From NCBI GenBank assembly GCA_963575655.1, contig CAUYTY010000186.1, positions 1 to 38,869 of the forward strand: a stretch of 38,869 bases of DNA. Reading direction: 5' to 3'. This document shows, piece by piece, positions 6,627 through 28,147 of this stretch. This stretch comes from Gammaproteobacteria bacterium. GTDB lineage: Bacteria > Pseudomonadota > Gammaproteobacteria > CAIRSR01. The translations under genes and the position numbers were made by a program. How positions within the stretch are numbered: position 1 is the first letter of the stretch; each line of letters opens with the position of its first letter. Below the pieces are notes generated by a model. The model was not told the origin of the DNA. It ran no database searches and saw nothing but the letters and a program-made list of their open reading frames with translations.

Positions 6627-9347
6627 ATGTCTACCTGTAACCTACGTGATCATCGTCGGCTGTTGGCGACTCCTATCGGTACCTCGCTGCTCAGGATAGA
6701 TCTGGCGCTCGATCTGTACGCTAGAAATCCGTTTCGAATGCTCGTCACGCCCGCCTGGTTGGAAGATGATCGGCGTGATGCCCTTGTTCAGCGTTTTCGG
6801 AATCTATACAAGCTGCGCCCCGAAGCTGCCATGGGCGGCGTTCTACGTATTGGCTACGAAGAACTCGCGGATATCCGTGACCCGGTCGGGCTTCTGAACG
6901 ACCTGCGCGAACCCCAGCGACGCCTAGTGTGGGAATTGTTTTGGCCGCATGTCGGACAAAAGGATTTCAATCGTATCTCCGCTGGGGGTGTGCTCAATAT
7001 CCCAAAAAATGCTCCACTCCCTTCCTCTCTTCGGCCGACAGGAGAGGGGGAATCTGCCGCGACGCCTACCACTGCAACCTCTGCGGCAACAACAGCGGTA
7101 TCCCCGACTGCTCAGGCTGCTACGGACGTAGTGGAAGGGGCAGAGGTCGGTGGTGGAAAAGAGTCAGCGTCGCGAGTGAACCAGGATCTTTTTTTCGCGT
7201 CTACTCGCGACCTTGGGCGTATGGCCGCGCTCTGTGAACGTGATCAAAACGAGAGCGAGCCAAAAGTTTCGCAAGAGGACGGGGGTGTTTCTTTTCAGAC
7301 ATTACCCAAGGAAAGGCTTACTGATACGGCACTGTGGACTCACACCCTGGCCATTCTTCATCACAATCGTGCGTTGGCCATTGAGGTATCGATTACTGCC
7401 TCGATCGAACCGCTAAAAATGCGTATGTACCGCGCTGGGGCGGATGAACACTGGCGCAAATCTTTTGGGTATTGGGCCGCGACAATTGCGAACCCGATAT
7501 TCTGGGAATATCTGAAGAGCCGGGTCGCGATCTTTGATGACCCGCAATTACAGCCATCGCACCTGGAACCGTTGCGTGACGAATTACCGGCCGCGCTTCT
7601 GGCTTTTAATGCCACTCTGTTGCGGGCCTATGTGGGGGCGGGTTGCATGGAGGATGCGGCTCGACACATGCGTCTACTCGGTATCAATCCCTTTCGTCTG
7701 CCCCTTCAGCAGAGCATTATGGTGGGGTTGGTGCGCGAGGTGGCGAATGCCTGGTTGAATCCCTTAATACAGCAGCTAGAAAGCCAACGTCCGCGTGAGA
7801 AGTGTTCTTGGCGGGTGCTGCGTGATTGGTTGACGCCGATTATTGAGTCTGCCGAAAAATTGCCGGTTGAAATCAAGGAAAAGTTCGGGGTAGATGAGAT
7901 TACCTTGGCCGAGATGCAATTCGATAACCTCGCGGAAAAGATCTTCGACAGTCTTGGGCCGGACATGGTGGATTATCAACCATCCAGTGAGCGAACCTTA
8001 CTGTTCTTGCTCCTGGTTCTACGAAAGATCTTGGGATTACCTCTCTCTGCTTCACTACAAAGGAAAGTGGAGGAACGCCGTGGTGAATATACCGAAAACC
8101 TCTACGGTCGTTTCTATGCCAATCCGCACCAAGCACGACAACTGGATCCTACCGAATGTTGGTTTCTGCCAGGAGAATTAGCCGATCCAGAGGCATCTCT
8201 CTTGTTACCTGTCCACAAACCCACCTCCGAGAAGGGCAAGGCTGCACTCTGGAGTTCGCAGGAGGTATTGGTTCCACGTTCGCAATTGGCCGATACCCTC
8301 CATCTTGGTAAAGCGGAAGAGGTTGGTGAACAACGGCAGGCTGAGGCCGATCGATTTATCAAATTGATCGAGGAGTTTACCCTAGAGGCCGAGCGTGACA
8401 AGCACCGCATCGAAACCGCCTGCGCTGCTGCGATTGCCGAAGAGGATGCGTATCGAAAGGTGCGAATGCGCATCTTTGATGAAGAACTCTTCCCTGAGGA
8501 AACTCCGCTCAAGACCGAGGTACAAAAAGTCGAGGATAGTTTTCGACCGCGTATTTCCGAGGTAGAGATGCGCTTGGCGGCCGCACGCGCGACTACTGCG
8601 GAACGCTGGACACCAGCATTGGTCGCTGCCCGTAAAACTCTCACACGACTTGAACCGTTGAACAGATTGGTGCGCGTCAATCTTCCCCTGGTTGTCGTCA
8701 TCGGTGGTGCTATGGCGCTGTCGATCTCTACTTTTTCTGCTGCCCGGATGTGGGCTATTCAATATTTGACGCCGCTGGAATTGGTCTTACGTACCCGCTG
8801 GTACGCCTCGGATTACTTCGTAGAGCAGATTCCCGTGGTGGTTGCGATCCTTCTGACCGTAATACTAACGATAGTTTTCACCGAGATCATTCTGGCGGGT
8901 AAGGCGCGTGCGGCCCAGCACAAGTTGCAGAAAACAGAAGAACGCCATCAAGAGGCCCTTGCCTGGATTGACCAAGTGGTCCAAGAGCAACGCGATGTAA
9001 TCCTTCGTGAGCAGGAAGGACAACTTTTAGAGCAACGCACCAAATTGCAGGACATTGCGCAACGTCGTGAGGTGTTTACCCAGGAGATGAATCAGATCGT
9101 AGCGAGTGTCCAAAGTCGTCACCAACAAGAGATTGAGCGTCGTCAGGCCACTTTCACCAATCACTTGGTGCAATTGCAGCTACGCCTCGACGCCTATAAG
9201 AGTCCTCCCAAGACCGTTGATGAGAAAGGCGATTTTACCGCCTATGTTGAGGCACTACGGATCGGCTATCTACCCGGCGAGCAGCCCCAGCGAAAGGATC
9301 TCAAGGCCCTCAGTAAACGCCATGTGGCGAAGTTATGGCCATTCTGA
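6627..9347 (+). CDS. large unrecognised protein: N-terminal NPFR...LRDP...ELFW domain, two TM segments, C-terminal coiled coil
   Basis: A 906-residue protein I cannot name. Residues ~33-108 contain NPFRML, RIGYEELADIRDP and RRLVWELFWPH, resembling a recurrent bacterial domain of the form NxFRVLGL...LRDPxxRLxDELFWFWP that often starts TPR- or DnaJ-like proteins. Residues ~128-175 are a low-complexity Ala/Thr/Ser linker; its beginning (PLPSSLRPTGEGE) is the translation of a genomic palindromic repeat. The middle is helical. A charged coiled coil (about 570-670) precedes two hydrophobic segments near residues 686-706 and 735-756. A long second coiled coil follows (about 760-870, rich in E/Q/R). 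The topology suggests a membrane-anchored protein with large cytoplasmic helical regions. The start at 6627 has a TAAGGT-like site. Confidence 0.65.
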   Translation: MSTCNLRDHRRLLATPIGTSLLRIDLALDLYARNPFRMLVTPAWLEDDRRDALVQRFRNLYKLRPEAAMGGVLRIGYEELADIRDPVGLLNDLREPQRRLVWELFWPHVGQKDFNRISAGGVLNIPKNAPLPSSLRPTGEGESAATPTTATSAATTAVSPTAQAATDVVEGAEVGGGKESASRVNQDLFFASTRDLGRMAALCERDQNESEPKVSQEDGGVSFQTLPKERLTDTALWTHTLAILHHNRALAIEVSITASIEPLKMRMYRAGADEHWRKSFGYWAATIANPIFWEYLKSRVAIFDDPQLQPSHLEPLRDELPAALLAFNATLLRAYVGAGCMEDAARHMRLLGINPFRLPLQQSIMVGLVREVANAWLNPLIQQLESQRPREKCSWRVLRDWLTPIIESAEKLPVEIKEKFGVDEITLAEMQFDNLAEKIFDSLGPDMVDYQPSSERTLLFLLLVLRKILGLPLSASLQRKVEERRGEYTENLYGRFYANPHQARQLDPTECWFLPGELADPEASLLLPVHKPTSEKGKAALWSSQEVLVPRSQLADTLHLGKAEEVGEQRQAEADRFIKLIEEFTLEAERDKHRIETACAAAIAEEDAYRKVRMRIFDEELFPEETPLKTEVQKVEDSFRPRISEVEMRLAAARATTAERWTPALVAARKTLTRLEPLNRLVRVNLPLVVVIGGAMALSISTFSAARMWAIQYLTPLELVLRTRWYASDYFVEQIPVVVAILLTVILTIVFTEIILAGKARAAQHKLQKTEERHQEALAWIDQVVQEQRDVILREQEGQLLEQRTKLQDIAQRREVFTQEMNQIVASVQSRHQQEIERRQATFTNHLVQLQLRLDAYKSPPKTVDEKGDFTAYVEALRIGYLPGEQPQRKDLKALSKRHVAKLWPF
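7013..7052 (+). repeat. C/G-rich palindromic repeat embedded in frame in a coding region
   Basis: The stretch has a C-rich arm (CCACTCCCTTCCTCTC) and a G-rich arm (GGAGAGGGGGAAT) spaced by about 11 bases, matching the dispersed repeat family of this window. It is read through in frame as PLPSSLRPTGEGE at the start of the low-complexity linker of the 906-residue protein. Confidence 0.45.
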
Positions 9348-18749: not shown

Positions 18750-19028
18750 GGGCGCTAGGGGGTGAGGTGCTGGAGAAGTCCTTACGGAAGCGGGAACGTC
18801 GCTTACGCTTAACAGACATTACACCATACCTTGCGCGGTCCTTGGGTGATCCGAGGTGGAGTTCGGTCATGCGGTAGGTGGGCCGGAGGATCTCGTTGCA
18901 CGAGCCGACAAACGTCAGACAAAATACCTCAGAGGTATCGCCACAGCTCGTGCACTGTAGCGAGCGCAAGGCAGCCAAAAATAACATATTTAAAAAGGTA
19001 TAAGATTATCATTCGAAACGACGGCGAT
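18750..19028. promoter_or_regulatory. divergent intergenic region before the RiPP locus
   Basis: This 279-bp gap separates two divergently transcribed genes, so it must hold both promoters. The final 50 bases before the radical SAM gene turn AT-rich, with TATTTAAAAAGGTATAAGATTA-like sequence; TATAAG at about 19000 could be a -10 element, but no convincing -35 is seen. A minus-strand open frame (18676-18987) contains a CTSCG motif and a basic patch. It overlaps the oxidoreductase start in another frame, and I do not consider it a supported gene. Confidence 0.25.
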
Positions 19029-20180
19029 ATGTCCGAATCCACCCCTCCCCTAATTGACCGCGCCGCCACTATCCTACGACCGCCACAGTCGGTGGTGATG
19101 AATACTCCGCGTAGCGTGGACCTCAGCCTCACCGGCAAGTGCAACCTACGTTGCAAGACCTGTTTCTACGCGGACGAAATGCAGAGCCTGCGCGACATGT
19201 CCACCGAACGCTGGCTAGTGCTGATGGATGAGTTGGGGACGCTGGGAGTGATGCATGCCAACCTGAGCGGCGGCGAGCCGCTGGCACGGCGTGATTTTCC
19301 CACCATCCTCGCGCGCCTGGTGGCCAACCGCTTGCGCTTTTCCATGAACTCGAACGGTATCCTGTTTGACGCCGAGAGCGCCCGCTTGCTTGCCGACACG
19401 CATCGTTGCGATACCGTCCAAGTCTCCATGGACGGCTCCTGCCCTGAAATCCACAACCTCATTCGCGGGCCAGGGGCGTTCGAGGGAGCGATGCGCGGGA
19501 TCCACCATTTGCTGGGGGCTGGGTTAAAGATTTCTGTGCGGGTGACCATCAACCGGATCAATGTCCACGATCTACCAGCCCTTTTCCACTTGTTGTTCGA
19601 GGAGATGGGGTTTAGCCAAGTGAGCACCAATGAGGTGTTCGCGCGTGGCGCTGGTCGTTGCTACGTGGATGAATTGGAACTGAATGCCGAGGAGCGGGTC
19701 GTGGCCCGGCACCATTGCCTGGACGCCGCCGCCCGCTACCCAAGCCTCGGCGCTATGGCTGGTCCCCTGGTCGAGGCACGTCAACTTGCCGACATCCGCG
19801 CCGCCATGGCCGGGCGGAGCGATTGGCAACGCAACGGTGGTGGCTATCTGAGCGCCTGCGGCTCGGTCTTCAACAAACTCGCTATCCTCCACAACGGCGC
19901 GGTGGTGCCCTGTACCCAGTTGCCGCACCTGGTGCTCGGTTATGTGGGCCAGGAACCGCTAGGTACCCTCTGGCGGCAGGCCGAGGCGCTACGCTACCTG
20001 CGCGAGCGCCGTCACATCCCGCTAGAGCGACTGGAAGGCTGTCGCGGTTGTCGCTATCAGTGCTTTTGCACCGGTGGTTGCCCGGCCATGGCCTACGCAG
20101 CCACCGGCGAGCTGACGGCCGTTGATCCACGTGGTTGCTATCAGCGCCTACTCGCCGAAGAGGTCGCCGATGTCGTTTGA
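19029..20180 (+). CDS. radical SAM/SPASM peptide-modifying enzyme (ScmE-like)
   Basis: A 383-residue radical SAM enzyme. The frame is open from 18831, but the ATG at 19029 is chosen because the family N-terminus (NTPRSVDLSLTGKCNLRC) starts just after it. The SAM-cluster cysteines are C38, C42 and C45 in CNLRCKTC, with GGEP in NLSGGEPLARRDF. The C-terminal SPASM domain carries C277 (ACGSVFNK), VPC, and CRGCRYQCFCTGGCP from residue 338, ligands for auxiliary Fe-S clusters. PqqE- and SynChlorMet-type enzymes with this layout modify side chains of ribosomal peptides. It overlaps the next radical SAM gene by 11 bases. It is the only intact radical SAM enzyme of the locus in this window. Confidence 0.88.
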   Translation: MSESTPPLIDRAATILRPPQSVVMNTPRSVDLSLTGKCNLRCKTCFYADEMQSLRDMSTERWLVLMDELGTLGVMHANLSGGEPLARRDFPTILARLVANRLRFSMNSNGILFDAESARLLADTHRCDTVQVSMDGSCPEIHNLIRGPGAFEGAMRGIHHLLGAGLKISVRVTINRINVHDLPALFHLLFEEMGFSQVSTNEVFARGAGRCYVDELELNAEERVVARHHCLDAAARYPSLGAMAGPLVEARQLADIRAAMAGRSDWQRNGGGYLSACGSVFNKLAILHNGAVVPCTQLPHLVLGYVGQEPLGTLWRQAEALRYLRERRHIPLERLEGCRGCRYQCFCTGGCPAMAYAATGELTAVDPRGCYQRLLAEEVADVV

Positions 20181-20630
20181 AGGCCACACGGTTCCCCTGG
20201 AACCGCTGGCGCGTCCAGCCTCTCACACGCTTGCCATCGACGTCGCGGCCATCGCTGCGGCCCTACGTGGGTGGTCACCGCGTGCCGGCGTCAAGGAGGT
20301 TACGGAGGACGCGCCGGTGCTGGCCCGCACTGCCCTGGCCGAAGGCGTCCCGCCGCTCCGTCACTTTTATTTCTACCTGACCGAGGGCTGCAATCAGGCC
20401 TGCCGGCACTGTTGGGTGGCGCCCTCCTACATGATGGGGAAGGGGACCGGCGGACATGTACCGGTCGCTGACCTGCTGGCCCTGTGTGATCGCGCCCGGC
20501 CGCTGGGTCTGAACAGGGTCAAGCTCACCGGTGGCGAGCCGTTGCTGCATCCACAGTTCGTGGCGCTGGTGAGCGGCCTGCGCGAGCGCGGACTACACGT
20601 ACAGATGGAGAGCAACCTCACCCTGCTCAC
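20170..20630 (+). pseudogene. radical SAM/SPASM enzyme (ScmF-like), N-terminal fragment cut by the IscB element
   Basis: Start at 20170 (ATGTCGTTTGA), overlapping the stop of the preceding gene by 11 bases. The fragment has PPLRHFYFYLTEGCNQACRHC with C74, C78 and C81 as SAM-cluster ligands, and LTGGEPLLHP. It runs to MESNLTLLT and is then interrupted: the frame continues into the mobile element (VESPPNFST) and stops at 20661. The middle and C-terminal parts of the same enzyme lie at 22337-22593 and 22757-23082, in the correct order and strand. The pattern PPLxxxYFYLTEGCN is that of SynChlorMet ScmF-type enzymes. The radical SAM identification is firm; the Scm subclass is by resemblance. Confidence 0.85.
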
Positions 20631-20904
20631 TGTTGAGTCGCCGCCTAACTTTTCAACCTAGCGGAATCCATTCCGCTGGCTGAAAAGTTTGAGATTCAAC
20701 CAGCCCGCCGAAAGGCAGCCGACAAGAAGTGAAGCGAAAGCGAGTCACCCAGGGATGCTTCTCCAGTCCCAGGCCCTGACGACGAAAGGAATGGCGGTCG
20801 AGAGACGGTATAAGACCCAATCCTTAGTCTGACCGACCTTCTTGTTCTGGGCGAGGAGACCTTTACGCGAAAGCAGACTTCCGGGTAACCGGAAAGAGAA
20901 AGTA
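20631..20904 (+). ncRNA. omega-RNA (HEARO RNA) of the IscB element
   Basis: IscB uses a structured RNA encoded directly upstream of its gene, first described as the HEARO motif. A 5' stem pairs GTTGAGTC (20632-20639) with GATTCAAC (20693-20700). Inside it AACTTTTCA (20647-20655) pairs with TGAAAAGTT (20681-20689), and AGCGGAAT (20660-20667) pairs with ATTCCGCT (20670-20677). Further on are a GTCA...TGAC-bounded domain at 20744-20780 and a perfect hairpin TTCCGG-GTAA-CCGGAA at 20879-20894 with a GNRA loop, ending ten bases before the iscB start. The guide should be the bases just 5' of the first stem, at about 20611-20630, which belong to the host radical SAM gene. Processing ends are not visible. 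Confidence 0.75.
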
Positions 20905-22242
20905 ATGAACCGAATCTTTGTGTTAAGCAGTACCAAGCAACCGCTGATGCCCTGTCACCCAGCACGGGCACGGGAACTGTTGCGGAAGGGTAAGGCCGCC
21001 GTCTACCGAATGCAGCCTTTTACCATCATCCTGAAGTCTCGCACCGATGGCGTAGTTCAAGACATCGCGTTCAAGACCGACCCCGGCAGCAAGACCACGG
21101 GGATTGTCTTGGTCGCGGGATTTGAGAAACACGGGTCAACGGTGATCTGGGCTGCCAATTTGTCTCATCGAGGTGCGGCCATCCATACCAACCTCGATAG
21201 CCGTCGTTCCTTGCGCCGTGGGCGTAGGGGCAGAAAGACCCGCTATCGTGAAGCACGATTCAACAACCGAACCCGTCAGGCCAATTGTGGTGGGAAATGG
21301 TTGGCACCCAGCATTAAAAGCCGTGTTGACAACGTAGCCATCTGGTACGGACGACTTAACCGGCTGGCACCGATTAGCGAAGCACATATCGAGACGGTAC
21401 GCTTTGACATGCAAAAGATGGCCAACCCGGAGATTTCCGGTGTCGAGTACCAGCAAGGAACGTTGGCCGGGTACGAACTACGGGAATACTTGTTGGAGAA
21501 GTTTGAGCGGACTTGTGCCTATTGCGGGAAGAAGGATGTGCCTCTTCAGATTGAGCACATCCAACCCAAAGCCCTTGGTGGTAGTGATCGGGCGTCTAAT
21601 CTAACCGTTGCTTGCCGACCCTGCAACGAAAAGAAAGCGGCGCAGCCTGTTGAGAAGTTCCTTGTGGGTAAACCTGACCTACTGAAAAAGATTAAAGCAC
21701 AAGCCAAAGCACCATTACGCGACGCGGCAGCGGTAAATTCTGCACGTTACGCATTGGGCAACGAGATCAAAACCTGGGGATTGCCTACCTCGTTCTGGTC
21801 AGGTGGACGGACAAAATTAAACCGCGTCACGCAGGGTTACGTAAATGACCACTGGATTGACGCGACCTGTGTTGGTGAAACCGGCGCGGATGTCGTCATC
21901 CCACCTGGACTTGTACCGCTACAAATTAAAGCCACGGGACGTGGCACACACCAGACGGTAAGGACAGACAAGTTTGGATTTCCGCGTGGCGGTGCAGGTC
22001 GATGCAAACGGGTATTCGGGTTTCAGACTGGGGACCTGGTTCGTCTATCTCAACCGTCTGGAAAATATGCAGGAGACCATATCGGGCGGTTGGCCGGAAT
22101 CCGGGCAACGGGTTACTTCGATATTCGCTCTGGCGATGCAAAAATTACTGCACGACACCAAAACTTTACTTTGCTACAGAGAAGCGATGGCTATGAATAC
22201 AGTAACGTCAGCGGAAACGTCAAAGGCCGGCGGGCAGGCTGA
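20905..22242 (+). CDS. iscB: RNA-guided endonuclease IscB
   Basis: A 445-residue IscB, the Cas9-ancestor nuclease of IS200/IS605-type elements. Domains in order: PLMP (KQPLMPCHPARARELLRKG, 11-29); RuvC-I with D59 in TDPGSKTTGI; arginine-rich bridge helix (RRSLRRGRRGRKTRYR, 100-115); RuvC-II with E163 in IETVRFD; HNH domain 203-245 with zinc ligands C204, C207, C237 and C240 and catalytic H218 in IEHIQP; RuvC-III with H316 and D319 in NDHWIDA; then the C-terminal region. All catalytic residues are intact, so it is likely active. The ATG at 20905 follows AAAGAGAAAGTA; an upstream in-frame extension to 20842 belongs to the RNA. Confidence 0.93.
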   Translation: MNRIFVLSSTKQPLMPCHPARARELLRKGKAAVYRMQPFTIILKSRTDGVVQDIAFKTDPGSKTTGIVLVAGFEKHGSTVIWAANLSHRGAAIHTNLDSRRSLRRGRRGRKTRYREARFNNRTRQANCGGKWLAPSIKSRVDNVAIWYGRLNRLAPISEAHIETVRFDMQKMANPEISGVEYQQGTLAGYELREYLLEKFERTCAYCGKKDVPLQIEHIQPKALGGSDRASNLTVACRPCNEKKAAQPVEKFLVGKPDLLKKIKAQAKAPLRDAAAVNSARYALGNEIKTWGLPTSFWSGGRTKLNRVTQGYVNDHWIDATCVGETGADVVIPPGLVPLQIKATGRGTHQTVRTDKFGFPRGGAGRCKRVFGFQTGDLVRLSQPSGKYAGDHIGRLAGIRATGYFDIRSGDAKITARHQNFTLLQRSDGYEYSNVSGNVKGRRAG

Positions 22243-22336
22243 ACCTCAACGGCAGCGGCTTCAGAATTGCCCTCGCGTCCTCTGCTCCATTGCATTACGC
22301 AACCGGACTGGGGGGGCGTCGCACTCCCGGTGCTCC

Positions 22337-22593
22337 TTCGCGGAAAAGGCCCTCGCCATTATCGAAGGGATGAACTTTATCTCCACTAGCTTGGATGGGG
22401 TTGATGCCACAACCCATGACACCTTCCGTGGCGTGCCCGGCAGCTTCGACACCACCTGTGAGGCGGTACGTTTGCTCGCCCCCCACGTGCGGCTGCAGGT
22501 CATCATGTCCCTGCACGCGGACAACGCCGGGCAGGGCGAGGCACTGGTGGGACTGGCCAAGGCACTTGGGGCCGCGAGCGTCAAGTTCAATAG
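22337..22593 (+). pseudogene. middle fragment of the ScmF-like radical SAM enzyme
   Basis: Reads FAEKALAIIEGMNFISTSLDG, then VDATTHDTFRGVPGSFDTT and VIMSLHADNAGQGEAL, ending LGAASVKFN. These are the central strands and helices of a radical SAM barrel (STSLDG and the VIMSLH strand are typical). It directly continues the N-terminal fragment that ends at 20630. After SVKFN the sequence runs into the 163-bp palindromic element, and about 60-70 residues expected in this family before the SPASM cysteines are missing. Confidence 0.75.
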
Positions 22594-22756
22594 ACATTAT
22601 CGGAAACCTCACCCCCCGCCCCCCTCTCCTTAACAGGAGAGGGGGAGAATTATTCCGTTGTTATGCTTAACTCCTGAACGGAACAGGCAAAAAATCTCCC
22701 CCTCTCCTGTTAAGGAGAGGGGGGCGGGGGGTGAGGTTTTGGGTTTCCGATAATGT
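22594..22756. mobile_element. 163-bp MITE-like element with long near-perfect inverted repeats
   Basis: The ends are ACATTATCGGAAACC (22594-22608) and GGTTTCCGATAATGT (22742-22756), exact reverse complements. Inside, about 41 bases of C-rich then G-rich sequence (beginning CCTCACCCCCCGCCCCCC) are repeated inverted at the other side. A central TTCCGTT ... AACGGAA pair completes what would be one long hairpin. The inner arms match the dispersed C/G-rich palindromic repeat of this genome. The outer 12 bases TTATCGGAAACC recur at both ends of the 99-bp element at 36231-36329. It has no coding capacity. It separates the middle and C-terminal fragments of the radical SAM gene and coincides with a deletion of coding sequence. 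Confidence 0.75.
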
Positions 22757-23082
22757 GCGGTATCGACCATGTGCTGGGAGTCCTAGGTAACGGCCACCTG
22801 GCCATGTGTGGCATCGGAACCACGGTGGAGGACCTGGTCTACGGCAACCTGACGAGCGACCTCCCTGCCCTATGGAACCACCATCCCCTGCTGGTGCGTC
22901 TGCGCGAGAGCGTGCCTGCCGCCCTTGAGGGGGTGTGCGGCCGCTGCTTGTTCCGGCGCGAGTGCAAGGCCCAGTGCGTGGCCAACAACTATCACGACCA
23001 CGGGCGATTGACCGCCCCTCACTGGTTTTGCCAGGCGGCGTATGACGCGGGTCTGTTCCCGCTCTCGCGCCTGGAATCCTGA
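22757..23082 (+). pseudogene. C-terminal SPASM fragment of the ScmF-like radical SAM enzyme
   Basis: Reads CGIDHVLGVLGNGHLAMCGIG and later GVCGRCLFRRECKAQCVANNY, the cysteine pattern of a SPASM auxiliary-cluster domain, ending at 23082 just upstream of the PqqD gene. An ATG at 22753 overlaps the palindromic element and could give a 109-residue stand-alone product with no radical SAM core. It is best read as the end of the gene that begins at 20170. Confidence 0.75.
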
Positions 23083-23104: not shown

Positions 23105-23377
23105 ATGTCCACGCCACTCATCCCCAACCCCCATATCGTGCTGCGCGAGGAGTTCGACGATTGGGCCATCCTGTTCGACCCGGATACGGGCAACGCCTTC
23201 GGCCTCAACCCCGTGGGCGTGCATTGTTGGAAGCGAATGGACGGTCGACGCACCCTGGAGGCAATCCTGGATGAGCTGCCGAGTCACTTTGATGCCGTCC
23301 CGGACAACACCCGTGAAGGGATGGAGGCGTTCGTGACGATGCTCAAGGAGCAGGGGCTACTGATGCGGCCGAACTGA
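23105..23377 (+). CDS. PqqD-like peptide carrier (ScmD-like)
   Basis: A 90-residue protein of the PqqD/RRE family: PHIVLREEFDDWAILFDPDTGNAF forms the strands that bind the precursor leader, followed by GLNPVGVHCWKRMDGRRTLEAILDEL and a C-terminal helix (FVTMLKEQGLLMRP). PqqD-type RiPP recognition elements hold the leader peptide and present it to the radical SAM enzyme. The start at 23105 fits the family N-terminus; a frame open from 23042 is inside the previous gene. It lies between the radical SAM genes and the first precursor, as in SynChlorMet cassettes. Confidence 0.88.
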   Translation: MSTPLIPNPHIVLREEFDDWAILFDPDTGNAFGLNPVGVHCWKRMDGRRTLEAILDELPSHFDAVPDNTREGMEAFVTMLKEQGLLMRPN

Positions 23378-23436: not shown

Positions 23437-23622
23437 ATGAAGAACGAGACACCCGAGGTCCAGGTTTGCGCTAAACCACGGTATGAATCCCCTGTCCTAC
23501 TTCCGCTCAATACACAGAGCGCCGATGCCTTCGCGTGTGGGAATGGAAGTAGCACTGGCGGGGGTTGCGGCACTGGTTATGGTGACGCTATCACATGCGG
23601 CTCTGGCTCCGGCGCCGTCTAG
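23437..23622 (+). CDS. RiPP precursor peptide 1 (Gly/Cys-rich core)
   Basis: A 61-residue peptide. The leader-like N-terminus ends with YESPVLLPLN (16-25) and SADA (28-31). The C-terminal core is Gly/Ser/Thr-rich with cysteines at 34, 44 and 54, exactly ten residues apart and each followed by Gly. The second precursor at 24550 shares the motif YExPxLxPLNxxSAxA and part of the ten-residue Cys spacing. A small Gly/Cys-rich peptide beside radical SAM and PqqD genes is the normal layout for a modified peptide. An AGAGG site lies 12-14 bases before the ATG. The HPr-kinase-like gene starts inside or at its stop codon. The mature product and cleavage site are unknown. Confidence 0.8.
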   Translation: MKNETPEVQVCAKPRYESPVLLPLNTQSADAFACGNGSSTGGGCGTGYGDAITCGSGSGAV

Positions 23623-24503
23623 TGACAAAATCCGTTTCCGACGTGGGGCGGAAGAGCGTGTTGGTCATGCCCGTTTGCCGTCTGATGACCGGTACCACCG
23701 TCTGGCATTTGACAGCGGACCCGGCCGTAGCCGGATGGCTGGCGCTCTACGCGCAGCGGTTGGAACTATCAGCGGCCACCCCGGAAGAACAGCCCGCACG
23801 CCGTCTACACCTATCCGGTCCGATTGCGCGATTACCCGCTGAGGCGGTGCCTCTGTTGCACTTTTCCGACCTAGAGATCGCTGTGCTCCCGTCAGGCGGT
23901 GACCTCTATGCCCGTATTACCCCCAGCGATGACCCCGACATCGTGACTGGACAGATGTGCCGGGTCACCGGCGTGATCCATCACGCCATGGTGGGCACGG
24001 GTGGCCTACCATTGCATGCGGCCTTGGTGACCCTGAAAGGGCGGGCGTACCTTATCGCCGCTTCGGGGGGAACCGGCAAGTCCACCTGCCACGGCCGCAT
24101 CCCACCGCCCTGGGAGGGGCTGTGTGACGACGAGGCGCAGGTCAATCCCCGCGCCGAGGGTTTTACGGTGCAGCCCTTTCCCACCTGGAGCGTATTCTGG
24201 AACCGCCTGCCCGAACGCTCTTGGCCGGTGGAGCGCGCCCTACCGCTGGCGGCGGTGTTCTTTCTGGAGCAGGCGGAGCGGGACTTCACGGAAATGCTTA
24301 CCCCGGCCCACGCCTGTGCCCGCTTGATGCGCGCGGCGAACGAGGCTGCCTTCCGTGGGATCGGTCGGCATCTTGCCGATGCCGCAACATTGCGCCTGCG
24401 GCTGCTGGACAATGCCGCCGCCATGATTCGGACCGTTCCAACCTATCGCCTGGGCGCTACCCTGGATGGCCGTTTCTGGGAAGCCATGGAGGGGGTATTG
24501 TGA
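23595..24503 (+). CDS. HPr kinase/PEPCK-like NTP-binding protein (ScmC-like)
   Basis: A protein of up to 302 residues with a P-loop AASGGTGKST followed by CHGRIPPPWEGLCDDEAQV. This arrangement is known from HPr kinase-like proteins in peptide-modification cassettes (SynChlorMet ScmC type), where the role is unclear; they may phosphorylate the peptide or a sugar. The start is uncertain: ATG 23595 overlaps the precursor by 28 bases, GTG 23622 overlaps its TAG by one base, and ATG 23667 gives a shorter protein that still keeps all conserved parts. No HPr or PTS genes are nearby, which argues against a carbon-catabolite role. Confidence 0.78.
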   Translation: MRLWLRRRLVTKSVSDVGRKSVLVMPVCRLMTGTTVWHLTADPAVAGWLALYAQRLELSAATPEEQPARRLHLSGPIARLPAEAVPLLHFSDLEIAVLPSGGDLYARITPSDDPDIVTGQMCRVTGVIHHAMVGTGGLPLHAALVTLKGRAYLIAASGGTGKSTCHGRIPPPWEGLCDDEAQVNPRAEGFTVQPFPTWSVFWNRLPERSWPVERALPLAAVFFLEQAERDFTEMLTPAHACARLMRAANEAAFRGIGRHLADAATLRLRLLDNAAAMIRTVPTYRLGATLDGRFWEAMEGVL

Positions 24504-24549
24504 GGCGGGGCAAATAAAATGAGCGATTTGAGGAATGAGGAATAAAACC

Positions 24550-24741
24550 ATGACAAAACCACAAAACACACAGAATGAAATAAAAGAAAATACAAAAAAT
24601 CCTTTCTATGAACCTCCTTTGCTGATTCCCTTAAATTTGAAAAGCGCCAATGCCTGTTGTGCAACTGGAAGTGGTGATCTTTTCAGTTGTTCCCTAGGTA
24701 ATTTAGCGGGGGCAGGGGCAGGGGAAGGGGCATGTGATTAA
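24550..24741 (+). CDS. RiPP precursor peptide 2 (Gly/Cys-rich core)
   Basis: A 63-residue peptide from the ATG at 24550, which has TGAGGAA nine bases upstream; an in-frame ATG at 24535 is weaker. The leader is rich in Asn/Lys/Thr, then FYEPPLLIPLNLKSANA matches the leader motif of precursor 1. The core has cysteines at 36, 37, 47 and 62 among Gly and Ala (GAGAGEGACD), with C37-C47 ten apart. It is clearly more AT-rich than precursor 1 and its upstream neighbours, so the pair probably did not arise by a recent tandem duplication. It sits immediately upstream of the PqqD-ATP-grasp gene, which suggests that gene serves this peptide. Confidence 0.78.
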   Translation: MTKPQNTQNEIKENTKNPFYEPPLLIPLNLKSANACCATGSGDLFSCSLGNLAGAGAGEGACD

Positions 24742-24770: not shown

Positions 24771-26393
24771 TTGGTTTCTGTGAATAATTCGTTATTTCTT
24801 TCTTGTGAGTACTACGCAACGCAAAGCGACGAACAGGTATGCGGTGATTTAGGTAGTCAAGTGGTTTTGATTGGAACCATCGACGGGCAGTATCACTTAC
24901 TGAACAGTACTGGCGAATGGATCTGGGAGAAATTAGTGGAACCCTGCCGGATCGGGGATCTTCGCGATCAAATGATCGCTAAATTCGGCGCCAATGATGG
25001 GCGGACGGAGCAGGAATTATTTGATTTTCTGGTCAATCTCCGACGTGCCGAATTAATCGATGTCCTCGGTCAATCCATCACCGAAAACCATCCGCTTGCT
25101 GTCCAGCCCCGTGTTGAAGAAAGTTTCCTGAATCGGGTTGAAACCTTTTTTGGAGAATGGCCGATCTACCTACCATGGATGCGATTTCTCACCTCAACAC
25201 CCATGTCTCGAATTCGGCGTTGGGCAGGCCGGGTCTATCGTCATCCAACCCTACCAGTATGGTTACAATGGCTTCTAAAGGCGACGGTATGGGCCTGGTG
25301 GCCATATCAATCCTGGTTCCAAGCGCGCGACGCCACTCGTGAACATGGCCCGGCGGTATTGGCACGGCTCGGGAAGGGGCTGGCTCGTCAAAGGGTCGAA
25401 CAATGGTGGCTGGCTTTATGCCACGGTGTGCCCCCAGCGAAGTATTATTCCCTAGGAATTTTTTTGCCTACTCGCTATCGCCAGGCACGTCACTACCTGT
25501 TCGACAATGACCGGGTACCATTATTCCGAGGATTGACCACGAATCAAGAGATCGGAAGCCTCGATAAATGGTCCTTTTATGTTCGTTGCCGCGATCATGG
25601 TGTCGCGGCCGTACCTCCGTTAGGGGTTTTCAGTGGAGGACGCTATTGGCCATTAGGACCAGATGGGGCATGGCCGCCACGCGTGGATCTATTCATAAAG
25701 CCGATCCAGGGTTCCCGAGGGCGTAATGCCATGCTTTGGTATCGGCAGCCTAATGGCGAATATCGAGATAGACAAGGCGTACGTCTTTCCGCGCTTGCGT
25801 TATTGGATTACTTGAGCCGCTTGACCCGAACAAGAGGTTCCACGAAACGATTTGGTTTTGAGCGTGGACTCCTTGTTCAGCAACGGTTGTGCAATCATCC
25901 GGATATTGTGGATTTGAGCAATGGCGAGATAGCGACCATTCGGGTGGTAACGGGATGGCCTGCGGAAAATATTGAGAACGCTGAAGCCGAACCCCTGGCG
26001 GCATTATTCAAGATGTCCTTTGGGGCAGGAATCATCAACAACACGGGAATCAAAGCAATAATTGACTGGCGTACCGGAATATTAAAGGAATGTTTTCATT
26101 CTCAATCTGTCTTTACCCCCATTGATTGCCATCCAGATAGCGGTGCGCTCATTGCTGGTCGTGTTGTTCCTTATTGGCGAGAAGTAATTGAATTAGCGAA
26201 GCGTGCTCATCACCTTTATTCAGGATATCCCTTTGTCGGCTGGGATATTGTCATTACCGCCACTGGTCCTCTCCTCTTGGAAGGAAATCCGCTGTTGTTC
26301 GTTGAATTTGTGCAAAATGGAGAGGATCTGGCGTTTGGATTGGGTCGCTTCGCGGAACTGGTTGAGCAACATATCGGATTATTAAGTGGTTAG
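24771..26393 (+). CDS. PqqD-like domain fused to an ATP-grasp domain (sugar-transfer-associated type)
   Basis: A 540-residue two-domain protein. Residues ~20-100 (DLGSQVVLIGTIDGQYHLLN, TGEWIWEKLVE, ELFDFLVNLRRAELIDV) look like a PqqD/RRE domain. Residues ~230-535 look like the ATP-grasp domain associated with sugar-transfer loci: FIKPIQGSRGRNAMLW, LLVQQRLCNHPDI, IATIRVVTG, and a C-terminal YPFVGWDIVITATGPLLLEGNP with Asp/Glu/Asn metal ligands. An RRE on an ATP-grasp implies ATP-dependent ligation on a ribosomal peptide, as in graspetides, though the class differs. The start is probably TTG at 24771 (AAAGGA seven bases upstream) or GTG at 24780. The following gene begins two bases after its stop. 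Confidence 0.8.
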   Translation: MVSVNNSLFLSCEYYATQSDEQVCGDLGSQVVLIGTIDGQYHLLNSTGEWIWEKLVEPCRIGDLRDQMIAKFGANDGRTEQELFDFLVNLRRAELIDVLGQSITENHPLAVQPRVEESFLNRVETFFGEWPIYLPWMRFLTSTPMSRIRRWAGRVYRHPTLPVWLQWLLKATVWAWWPYQSWFQARDATREHGPAVLARLGKGLARQRVEQWWLALCHGVPPAKYYSLGIFLPTRYRQARHYLFDNDRVPLFRGLTTNQEIGSLDKWSFYVRCRDHGVAAVPPLGVFSGGRYWPLGPDGAWPPRVDLFIKPIQGSRGRNAMLWYRQPNGEYRDRQGVRLSALALLDYLSRLTRTRGSTKRFGFERGLLVQQRLCNHPDIVDLSNGEIATIRVVTGWPAENIENAEAEPLAALFKMSFGAGIINNTGIKAIIDWRTGILKECFHSQSVFTPIDCHPDSGALIAGRVVPYWREVIELAKRAHHLYSGYPFVGWDIVITATGPLLLEGNPLLFVEFVQNGEDLAFGLGRFAELVEQHIGLLSG

Positions 26394-26395
26394 TT

Positions 26396-28147
26396 ATGAA
26401 ACAACAGCGGATAGTGGCGCTGGATGGTCTACGCGGTTTGGCTGCGCTGACGGTTGTCCTATTTCATGTCCTGACGCTGGACCCCAGCTTCTTGCCCGTC
26501 CTGCGAAAGCCGCTTGCTCTCGTTCCCGAGGCCGGTGCCCTGGCCCCTCTCGGGCTCCCCATCCTGCACCTGTCATGGGCGGGCCGCGAGGCGGTCATTT
26601 TGTTCTTCGCGCTCTCTGGCTTCGCGTTGGCGCAGCCGTTTTGTCATCCCCGCACGGCACCCACGTATAGCGACTTCCTGGTCCGCCGCCTGTACCGTAT
26701 CTATCTTCCCTTTCTGATGGTCGTGGCGCTGGGGGTGGGACTATGGTCGCTGATCGGCAACCTGCCGGTAGTGCGCTCCGGAGTGATTTACGTGGATCAG
26801 TGGTCCCACGCGCCAACCATGACGGTAGTATTTAAGGCGCTACTGATGGAGAACAGCTCGGTCATGCGGGTCGAACCGCCCTTGTGGTCGATTGCGCACG
26901 AAATGCGGCTTTCACTGGTGTTTCCCTTGCTGTTCTTCTCACTGGCTCGCTGGCCGGTGGCGACCTTCGCGGCGGCGCTGGCGTTTTCCGTGGCAATGGA
27001 GCAGGTGAGACACTCGCTGACTGGACTGCTTGAAGCCGCTAGCCAGACCGGACTTTACCTCTATCTCTTCGCGTTGGGAGCGCTTTTGGCGATTTACCGA
27101 CCTTGGGTGGAACGGTGGGTCGCGGCGTTGCTGCTGGTCGCCATACTGCTCCTGGCTTTAGTGACCTTGGCCCTTCTGGAGTCCGGTCTCTTCCTACCTT
27201 TTACGAACAGCCGCTGGGCGGTCGGCGTCGGTAGTGTCCTGTTGCTGGGCCTGGTGATTGGACGCGCGAGCTGGCGGCAAGCGTTCGAGGGTCCACTGCT
27301 GGCCTGGCTGGGGCGGATCTCTTTCAGCCTATATCTTACGCACTATCTGGTGATTCACTTGGTGGTGAAACTGCTCGGCAATCGTGTTCCGGTCGGTGGG
27401 GTCATGCTGGTCTCCCTCGCCGCCGCCCTGCCCATGGCGGTAGTGTTCCATCGGCTGGTGGAGGAGCCGACACACCGGCTTGGTCGGAGGTGGATCGCCG
27501 GCGAGGCGGATCCACCCCCCGGTCGTTTGTTCTGCAACGGCCATAGTATGTATCCGACTTTGCGAGCAGGTGACTTGCTTGAATACACAACGGTGTCACC
27601 AGAGCGGTTGCGCCGGGGGGACGTGATCATCTTTCCCAACCCCTCTCTCCCCGACCGGCTGGTGGTGCATCGTCTGCGGGCACGCCGTGGCGACCGTCTC
27701 ATTACCCAGGGGGACCACAATCACCTACCCGATTCATGGGAGGTGGCGTCCGACCAGGTGGTCGGCCGGGTGCTGTATTACCATAGAGGCAAGCACCGTC
27801 GAGTGCTGGCGGGCGGGTTGGCGGCCCAACTGCAAGGGCGAGTAACTGTGTTGAGCAATCGCCTATGGTCGTTTTTACTGAGGAAAGCGGCTTGGCTGCT
27901 CGCACCTTTGTACCATCAGTTGGCGCGGCGCGGCGTCGTCCTAAACCTGCTGGGCGCGGTGGGCTACCGGCCAGCACCACGCGTGGTACGCCTGTCTCGG
28001 GATGGCCAAGAGTACGATTGGTTGATGCTCGGAAATCGTCGGATCGGCTGGCGGGTCGGCGACCAGGCACGCTGGCGCGTGCGTCGGCCTTATCGCTTGC
28101 TGGTCGAACCTTCCCAAGTGGTTGAACATGAACGTCGGGACTTATAG
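26396..28147 (+). CDS. acyltransferase-3 membrane domain fused to an S26 signal-peptidase-like domain
   Basis: A 583-residue fusion. Residues 5-360 are an OafA-type acyltransferase 3 domain (VALDGLRGLAALTVVLFH, WAGREAVILFFALSGF, YRIYLPF, about ten transmembrane helices). Residues 375-480 are a signal peptidase I-like domain: S384 in GHSMYPTL, H425 in RLVVHRL, D440 and D446 in QGDHNHLPD. The His in place of the bacterial general-base Lys is the ER/archaeal (SipW/Sec11) type. A further ~100 residues follow with no recognised domain. Placed last in the operon, it could acylate and cleave or export the peptide. It starts two bases after the previous stop. Confidence 0.85.
   Translation: MKQQRIVALDGLRGLAALTVVLFHVLTLDPSFLPVLRKPLALVPEAGALAPLGLPILHLSWAGREAVILFFALSGFALAQPFCHPRTAPTYSDFLVRRLYRIYLPFLMVVALGVGLWSLIGNLPVVRSGVIYVDQWSHAPTMTVVFKALLMENSSVMRVEPPLWSIAHEMRLSLVFPLLFFSLARWPVATFAAALAFSVAMEQVRHSLTGLLEAASQTGLYLYLFALGALLAIYRPWVERWVAALLLVAILLLALVTLALLESGLFLPFTNSRWAVGVGSVLLLGLVIGRASWRQAFEGPLLAWLGRISFSLYLTHYLVIHLVVKLLGNRVPVGGVMLVSLAAALPMAVVFHRLVEEPTHRLGRRWIAGEADPPPGRLFCNGHSMYPTLRAGDLLEYTTVSPERLRRGDVIIFPNPSLPDRLVVHRLRARRGDRLITQGDHNHLPDSWEVASDQVVGRVLYYHRGKHRRVLAGGLAAQLQGRVTVLSNRLWSFLLRKAAWLLAPLYHQLARRGVVLNLLGAVGYRPAPRVVRLSRDGQEYDWLMLGNRRIGWRVGDQARWRVRRPYRLLVEPSQVVEHERRDL

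Follow-up and report, generated by a model that had tools for sequence, protein, structure and literature searches.

The window analyzed here, a stretch of 38,869 nucleotides of gammaproteobacterial DNA, contains two small open reading frames (ORFs) on either side of an HprK-like kinase gene, and raises the question of what these ORFs encode. A preliminary description had taken them for precursor peptides with a common leader and with regularly spaced cysteines marking repeated modification units. Comparison with NCBIfam showed that they are surrounded by genes for ScmE, ScmF, ScmD and ScmC, which make up a SynChlorMet (SCM) cassette. The identification of both ORFs as the precursors of this cassette (ScmA) is well supported. 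The following features were located:

18831-20180, + strand: ScmE, radical SAM/SPASM protein (TIGR04250, E=4e-102, 341.6 bits against a cut-off of 400)
20158-20631, + strand: ScmF pseudogene, piece 1 (model positions 1-96), radical SAM/SPASM according to NCBIfam
20632-22340, + strand: IscB element inside scmF, right end approximate
20632-20866, + strand: HEARO/omega RNA of the IscB element (RF02033, E=2.7e-9, below the gathering score)
20905-22242, + strand: IscB ORF (NF040563, E=2.5e-127)
22341-22593, + strand: ScmF pseudogene, piece 2 (model positions 106-181), start approximate
22594-22756, no strand: palindromic MITE-like element in scmF, 163 bp, with ends ACATTATCGGAAA and TTTCCGATAATGT
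22757-23082, + strand: ScmF pseudogene, piece 3, the SPASM part (model positions 246-353)
23105-23377, + strand: ScmD, PqqD-type RiPP recognition element, RRE (TIGR04248, E=6.8e-33, above cut-off)
23437-23622, + strand: ScmA1 precursor peptide, 61 aa, with the leader YESPVLLPLN, then SADA, and three CxxG units
23667-24503, + strand: ScmC, P-loop kinase of the HprK/PEPCK fold (TIGR04249, E=6.7e-52, above cut-off)
24550-24741, + strand: ScmA2 precursor peptide (63 aa when started at ATG 24550), with the leader YEPPLLIPLN, then SANA
24771-26393, + strand: PqqD domain fused to an ATP-grasp domain (ATPgrasp_ST; PF05402 and PF14397)
26396-28147, + strand: Acyltransferase_3 fused to an archaeal-type signal peptidase I (PF01757; TIGR02228, 60.9 bits, above cut-off)

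The likely start of ScmE is an ATG near 19029. Both ScmE and ScmF of the window matched their own SCM families best, and not PapB, AlbA or SkfB. The PqqD-ATP-grasp fusion, whose ATP-grasp part is of a sugar-transfer-associated type, directly follows ScmA2 and was absent from every other SCM locus found here and from 55 related genomes. In the acyltransferase-peptidase fusion the peptidase residues are Ser384 and His425. Other SCM loci encode the peptidase as a small protein of its own. No exporter gene was recognized adjoining the cassette, and the genes beyond it had a hydrogenase-related appearance upon inspection of the ORF translations.

The motif YE(S/P)P(V/L)L(L/I)PLN followed by SA(D/N)A was present in both ORFs, and the cysteines were at the positions that had been described. 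The last three cysteines of ScmA1 (34, 44 and 54) are ten residues apart with Gly at +1 of each; a further one, Cys11, lies in the leader and was absent from the preliminary description. ScmA2, for which the longest ORF starts at 24535 and gives 68 aa, has cysteines at 36, 37, 47 and 62 with CxxG units at Cys37 and Cys47, and the reported 37-47 interval was correct. When aligned with homologues, C34, G37, C44, G47, C54 and G57 of ScmA1 fell in invariant or near-invariant columns. ScmA1 matched the ScmA model TIGR04252 with E=3.7e-5 and 23.9 bits, for which the curated cut-off is 35 bits; ScmA2 had no NCBIfam match, and no Pfam model covered the precursors. As a direct query ScmA2 retrieved ScmA1 (43% identity, E=0.013). 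A leave-own-out profile, built from ScmA peptides of other genomes only, recognized ScmA1 with E=6.6e-11 and ScmA2 with E=5.1e-7, while the next ORF of the window had E=17. That the two are chance ORFs with a chance motif is already refuted by these E-values, by the conservation in 76 peptides and by the synteny described below; no supporting point was found for such a reading and it can practically be dismissed.

As ScmA1 found no matches when used as a query against a collection of genome contigs, the ScmD pair was used instead. The scan with the two ScmD proteins resulted in 78 loci, mostly in Deltaproteobacteria/Syntrophales, but also in Aminicenantes, Nitrospirae, Chlorobi, Verrucomicrobia and methanogenic archaea. 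An iterated profile search of their small ORFs, with seeds chosen partly by CxxG/CxG counts, yielded 76 ScmA peptides, three of which come from the genome of the window. With a limit of E<=0.001, TIGR04252 recognized just 11 of 69 precursors. Among the 45 loci with ScmD, ScmE, ScmF and an S26 signal peptidase gene, 34 had ScmC and 41 had ScmA. In 26 loci the gene immediately after ScmA was ScmC, and in 17 it was ScmD. The statement that the peptide genes flank the kinase gene was borne out, with ScmC lying between them, and ScmA also occurs on both sides of ScmC in L034, L058 (A-C-A-C-A-C) and L100. The preliminary description had named a lack of homologous small ORFs at equivalent positions, or of a conserved motif, as the outcome that would speak against it; both the ORFs and the motif were found.

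Some loci were more elaborate. L036 contains six ScmA and three ScmC genes, and in L083, L098 and L105 the ScmA genes have 7 to 9 consecutive CxxG units and lie on the strand opposite to ScmD. L105 also carries a chain-length-determinant-like gene, of a family present in 11 loci, which suggests a polysaccharide locus. A literature search with the SCM names and accession numbers returned nothing relevant, related terms yielded no SCM paper either, and the open papers searched contained nothing on substrate or product.

The cores of the 76 peptides are built from a ten-residue unit, C-x-x-G-x-x-A-x-x-x. Of 415 gaps between cysteines, 37% were exactly ten residues long, compared to 4% (maximum 7%) when each core was shuffled, and 67% were 8-11 residues long, compared to 17%. 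The ten-residue spacing is thus beyond chance and recurs in the homologues. The observation that each Cys is followed by Gly was true of the last three cysteines of ScmA1 but does not describe the family, in which Gly occupies Cys+3 in 80% and Cys+1 in 9%. Ala was found at +6 in 41%, and in 71% of the 146 exact ten-residue CxxG units. Because the seeds had been chosen partly by CxxG/CxG, the counts were repeated without any Cys criterion, on peptides selected solely for their leader motif and the location of their gene. The picture was unchanged: 31% of the gaps were ten residues long (shuffled 4%, maximum 9%) and Gly was at +3 in 75% (shuffled 20%, maximum 26%). This periodicity in sequence points to a natural-product peptide that is modified unit by unit. 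With the conserved leader, it supports the proposal of precursor peptides with repeated modification units.

What the modification may be is less certain. Two SPASM radical SAM families are encoded beside the peptides, which makes crosslinking of the cysteines plausible. One possible sub-case of the SCM pathway is that ScmE and/or ScmF form a Cys thioether in each repeat, as in sactipeptides and ranthipeptides; the regular cysteines and the Gly/Ser/Ala-rich units fit with this, but it is a guess to be held tentatively. The maturases score best to the SCM families, a conserved Asp/Glu near Cys as in PapB-type substrates was not seen in the ScmA cores, and a fixed partner Gly at +3 would need alpha-carbon chemistry. 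Two distinct radical SAM enzymes would also allow C-C links, epimerization or decarboxylation. Alternatively, the cysteines could stay free thiols for metal or disulfides, with the radical SAM chemistry directed at other positions of the unit, such as the +6 Ala or the +3 Gly. Many ScmA peptides are indeed CxxG-rich, with up to 17 Cys, and the share of Ala at +6 in exact units agrees with it. However, disulfides or metal sites alone demand neither a decapeptide period nor a Gly at +3, and we consider this quite unlikely.

The reading that we prefer, and regard as probable, is that the two ORFs are ScmA substrates of a SynChlorMet-type radical-SAM RiPP pathway in which ScmD, ScmE, ScmF, ScmC, a signal peptidase and an exporter act in turn. 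We infer both the order of the steps and their chemistry. ScmD would bind the leader and present the core to ScmE and ScmF, and these SPASM enzymes would act repeatedly on the C-x-x-G-x-x-A-x-x-x units. ScmC may then phosphorylate the peptide, as its fold and catalytic residues suggest. The archaeal-type signal peptidase would cut off the leader at a small-x-small site before the first CxxG, and an MsbA-like exporter, to which the conserved gene neighborhood points, would secrete the product.

The leader consensus of the 76 peptides is [YW]ExPxLxxL. When 74 peptides were aligned on the Pro, position -3 was Tyr in 69% or Trp in 12%, +2 was Leu in 70% and +5 was Leu in 64%. A [Y/W]xxPxL motif has been reported for lasso peptide leaders (PMC10368454, PMC13381572). 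In L054, ScmD and ScmA are joined in a single ORF (8140-8778) beside two further ScmD genes. When ScmD and ScmA were aligned jointly, ScmA was misplaced onto ScmD, and this alignment was discarded; the AlphaFold monomer model of the fusion was based on alignment rows of ScmD only. In this model the RRE was confident, and the leader segment 111-120 had a mean pLDDT of 80 with disordered stretches on either side. Its closest solved folds were lasso B1 (RRE)-leader complexes. From homology and this model together, we infer that ScmD binds the ScmA leader as an edge strand.

In ScmC and its homologues His117, the P-loop Lys138 (GGTGKS) and Asp154 are invariant, and Asp155 is present in at least 90%; a His-Lys-Asp-Asp motif characterizes the lasso kinases (PMC9266682). 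The AlphaFold model of ScmC had a pLDDT of 95.5 and matched PEPCK (E=2.8e-8) and HprK (E=1.5e-4). A role of the first-unit Ser at +4 as the ScmC site was not supported, as this Ser showed no tie to the presence of ScmC (30/52 with, 7/9 without). The S26 proteins of the SCM loci have an invariant Ser and His and are mostly without a strong hydrophobic segment. In 42 of 63 distinct segments the first CxxG was closely preceded by A-x-G, compared to a mean of 16 and a maximum of 28 after shuffling; a literal A-x-A signal, unlike A-x-G, was not enriched in the family. At this position the window peptides have A-D-A (ScmA1) and A-N-A (ScmA2). A small-x-small cleavage site before the first CxxG would explain the SA(D/N)A common to both, which is a local form of what is A-x-G in other genomes. 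The exporter family was present in 38 loci, at a median of 4.3 kb past ScmD, and was of the MsbA type in L118.

The pairing of peptides and enzymes within the window allows a further reading, in which the PqqD-ATP-grasp fusion, and not ScmC, ScmE and ScmF, acts on ScmA2, so that two pathways overlap. The gene order, A-C-A followed by the fusion, is in line with this, since elsewhere ScmA often precedes its own ScmC, as in L058. Yet the arrangement is a single example and ScmA2 keeps the common leader and CxxG unit, which makes such a split unlikely. In the preferred reading ScmA2, like ScmA1, is a substrate of the SCM pathway.

Whether this pathway still operates from the window depends on ScmF. 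The scmF gene is broken by the IscB and MITE-like elements, and ∼55-60 codons are missing at the palindromic element. The latter has ∼40 genomic copies with 97-100% identity, and the IscB protein has a second full copy, 99% identical, on contig C195 and partial copies on C201 and C228. As both inserts have near-identical genomic copies, both insertions look recent, and so does the loss of scmF. On contig C185 of the same genome a second cassette is arranged as ScmA-D-E-F-S26, with ScmE and ScmF intact and above cut-off. The cysteines of its ScmA are at 30, 40, 50, 61 and 71. A genome of a sister genus (L118) encodes the orthologous ScmA with the same spacing, together with ScmD, ScmE, ScmF, a divergent S26 gene and the exporter. 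In the other genome of the same genus that was searched, ScmD had no match. HprK/PqqD genes on contig C34 were not accompanied by a ScmA-like peptide, and a match on contig C77 (E=2.1) was rejected as a further peptide and regarded as noise. The window cassette may thus be decaying and its two peptides no longer matured, in keeping with the broken ScmF and with the lack of a recognized exporter beside it. The balance leans somewhat away from this, as both peptides, ScmD, ScmC and ScmE are still open, the loss is recent, and the second cassette has an intact ScmF. Under the SCM pathway, maturation here would either need that ScmF or be abolished.

The SCM cassette was already named in databases; the present analysis widens ScmA beyond one curated model to a family of 76 peptides with a clear repeat unit, a leader motif and a probable cleavage site, in many bacterial phyla and in archaea, which eases direct tests. 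A broader proposal, for which we see a real but not quite even prospect, is that SCM products form a distinct RiPP class, widespread among bacteria and methanogenic archaea. In this class a pair of radical SAM enzymes would make an identical change in each C-x-x-G-x-x-A decapeptide, on a kinase/signal-peptidase/exporter chassis like that of the linear polyphosphorylated peptides (LPP). If so, SCM peptides would be long, repetitive, modified and phosphorylated, and their loci would often contain several precursor-kinase pairs in alternation.

All five SCM families (TIGR04252, TIGR04249, TIGR04248, TIGR04250, TIGR04251) were recognized in the window, and the precursor has a PqqD-like gene, an HprK-like gene and a pair of SPASM radical SAM genes as neighbors. 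The window cassette is a variant of the annotated SCM kind: ScmA1 is below the cut-off, ScmA2 outside the ScmA model and ScmF broken, and the PqqD-ATP-grasp and acyltransferase-signal peptidase fusions are added. Other peptide families share parts of this set. Ranthipeptides and sactipeptides (PapB, AlbA) likewise have SPASM radical SAM maturases and Cys-containing cores, but the SCM maturases best match ScmE/ScmF and their unit is a CxxG with a ten-residue period. In TvgA/TvgB a radical SAM/SPASM enzyme also acts on a repeated short motif, which differs in being TVGG, with cyclopropylglycine and no Cys (PMC9062424). Lasso peptides of the paeninodin type share the [Y/W]xxPxL leader, the PqqD-like RRE and the His-Lys-Asp-Asp kinase (PMC5067487, PMC10368454, PMC9266682); they differ from SCM, where no macrolactam synthetase or B2 leader protease was recognized among the identified cassette genes and the core consists of Cys repeats. 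In experiments on LPP, the YxxP leader was removed by an archaeal-type signal peptidase and a Ser of the core was phosphorylated by an HprK-like kinase (PMC13381572). The SCM family at large resembles LPP in its YxxPx(V/L) leader, discrete RRE, HprK-like kinase, archaeal-type signal peptidase and MsbA-like exporter. The window cassette departs from this in its missing exporter and in the fusion of the peptidase to an acyltransferase. LPP clusters as described contain an NTP transferase and no radical SAM enzyme, and their cores are variable (PMC13381572), whereas SCM loci have radical SAM enzymes and cores of CxxG decapeptide repeats; the LPP leader consensus is YxxPxVLxHQxIxFETxxS, and ScmA leaders are without HQxIxFET. 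A common set of leader, RRE, kinase and peptidase thus links SCM to both the LPP and the lasso pathways.
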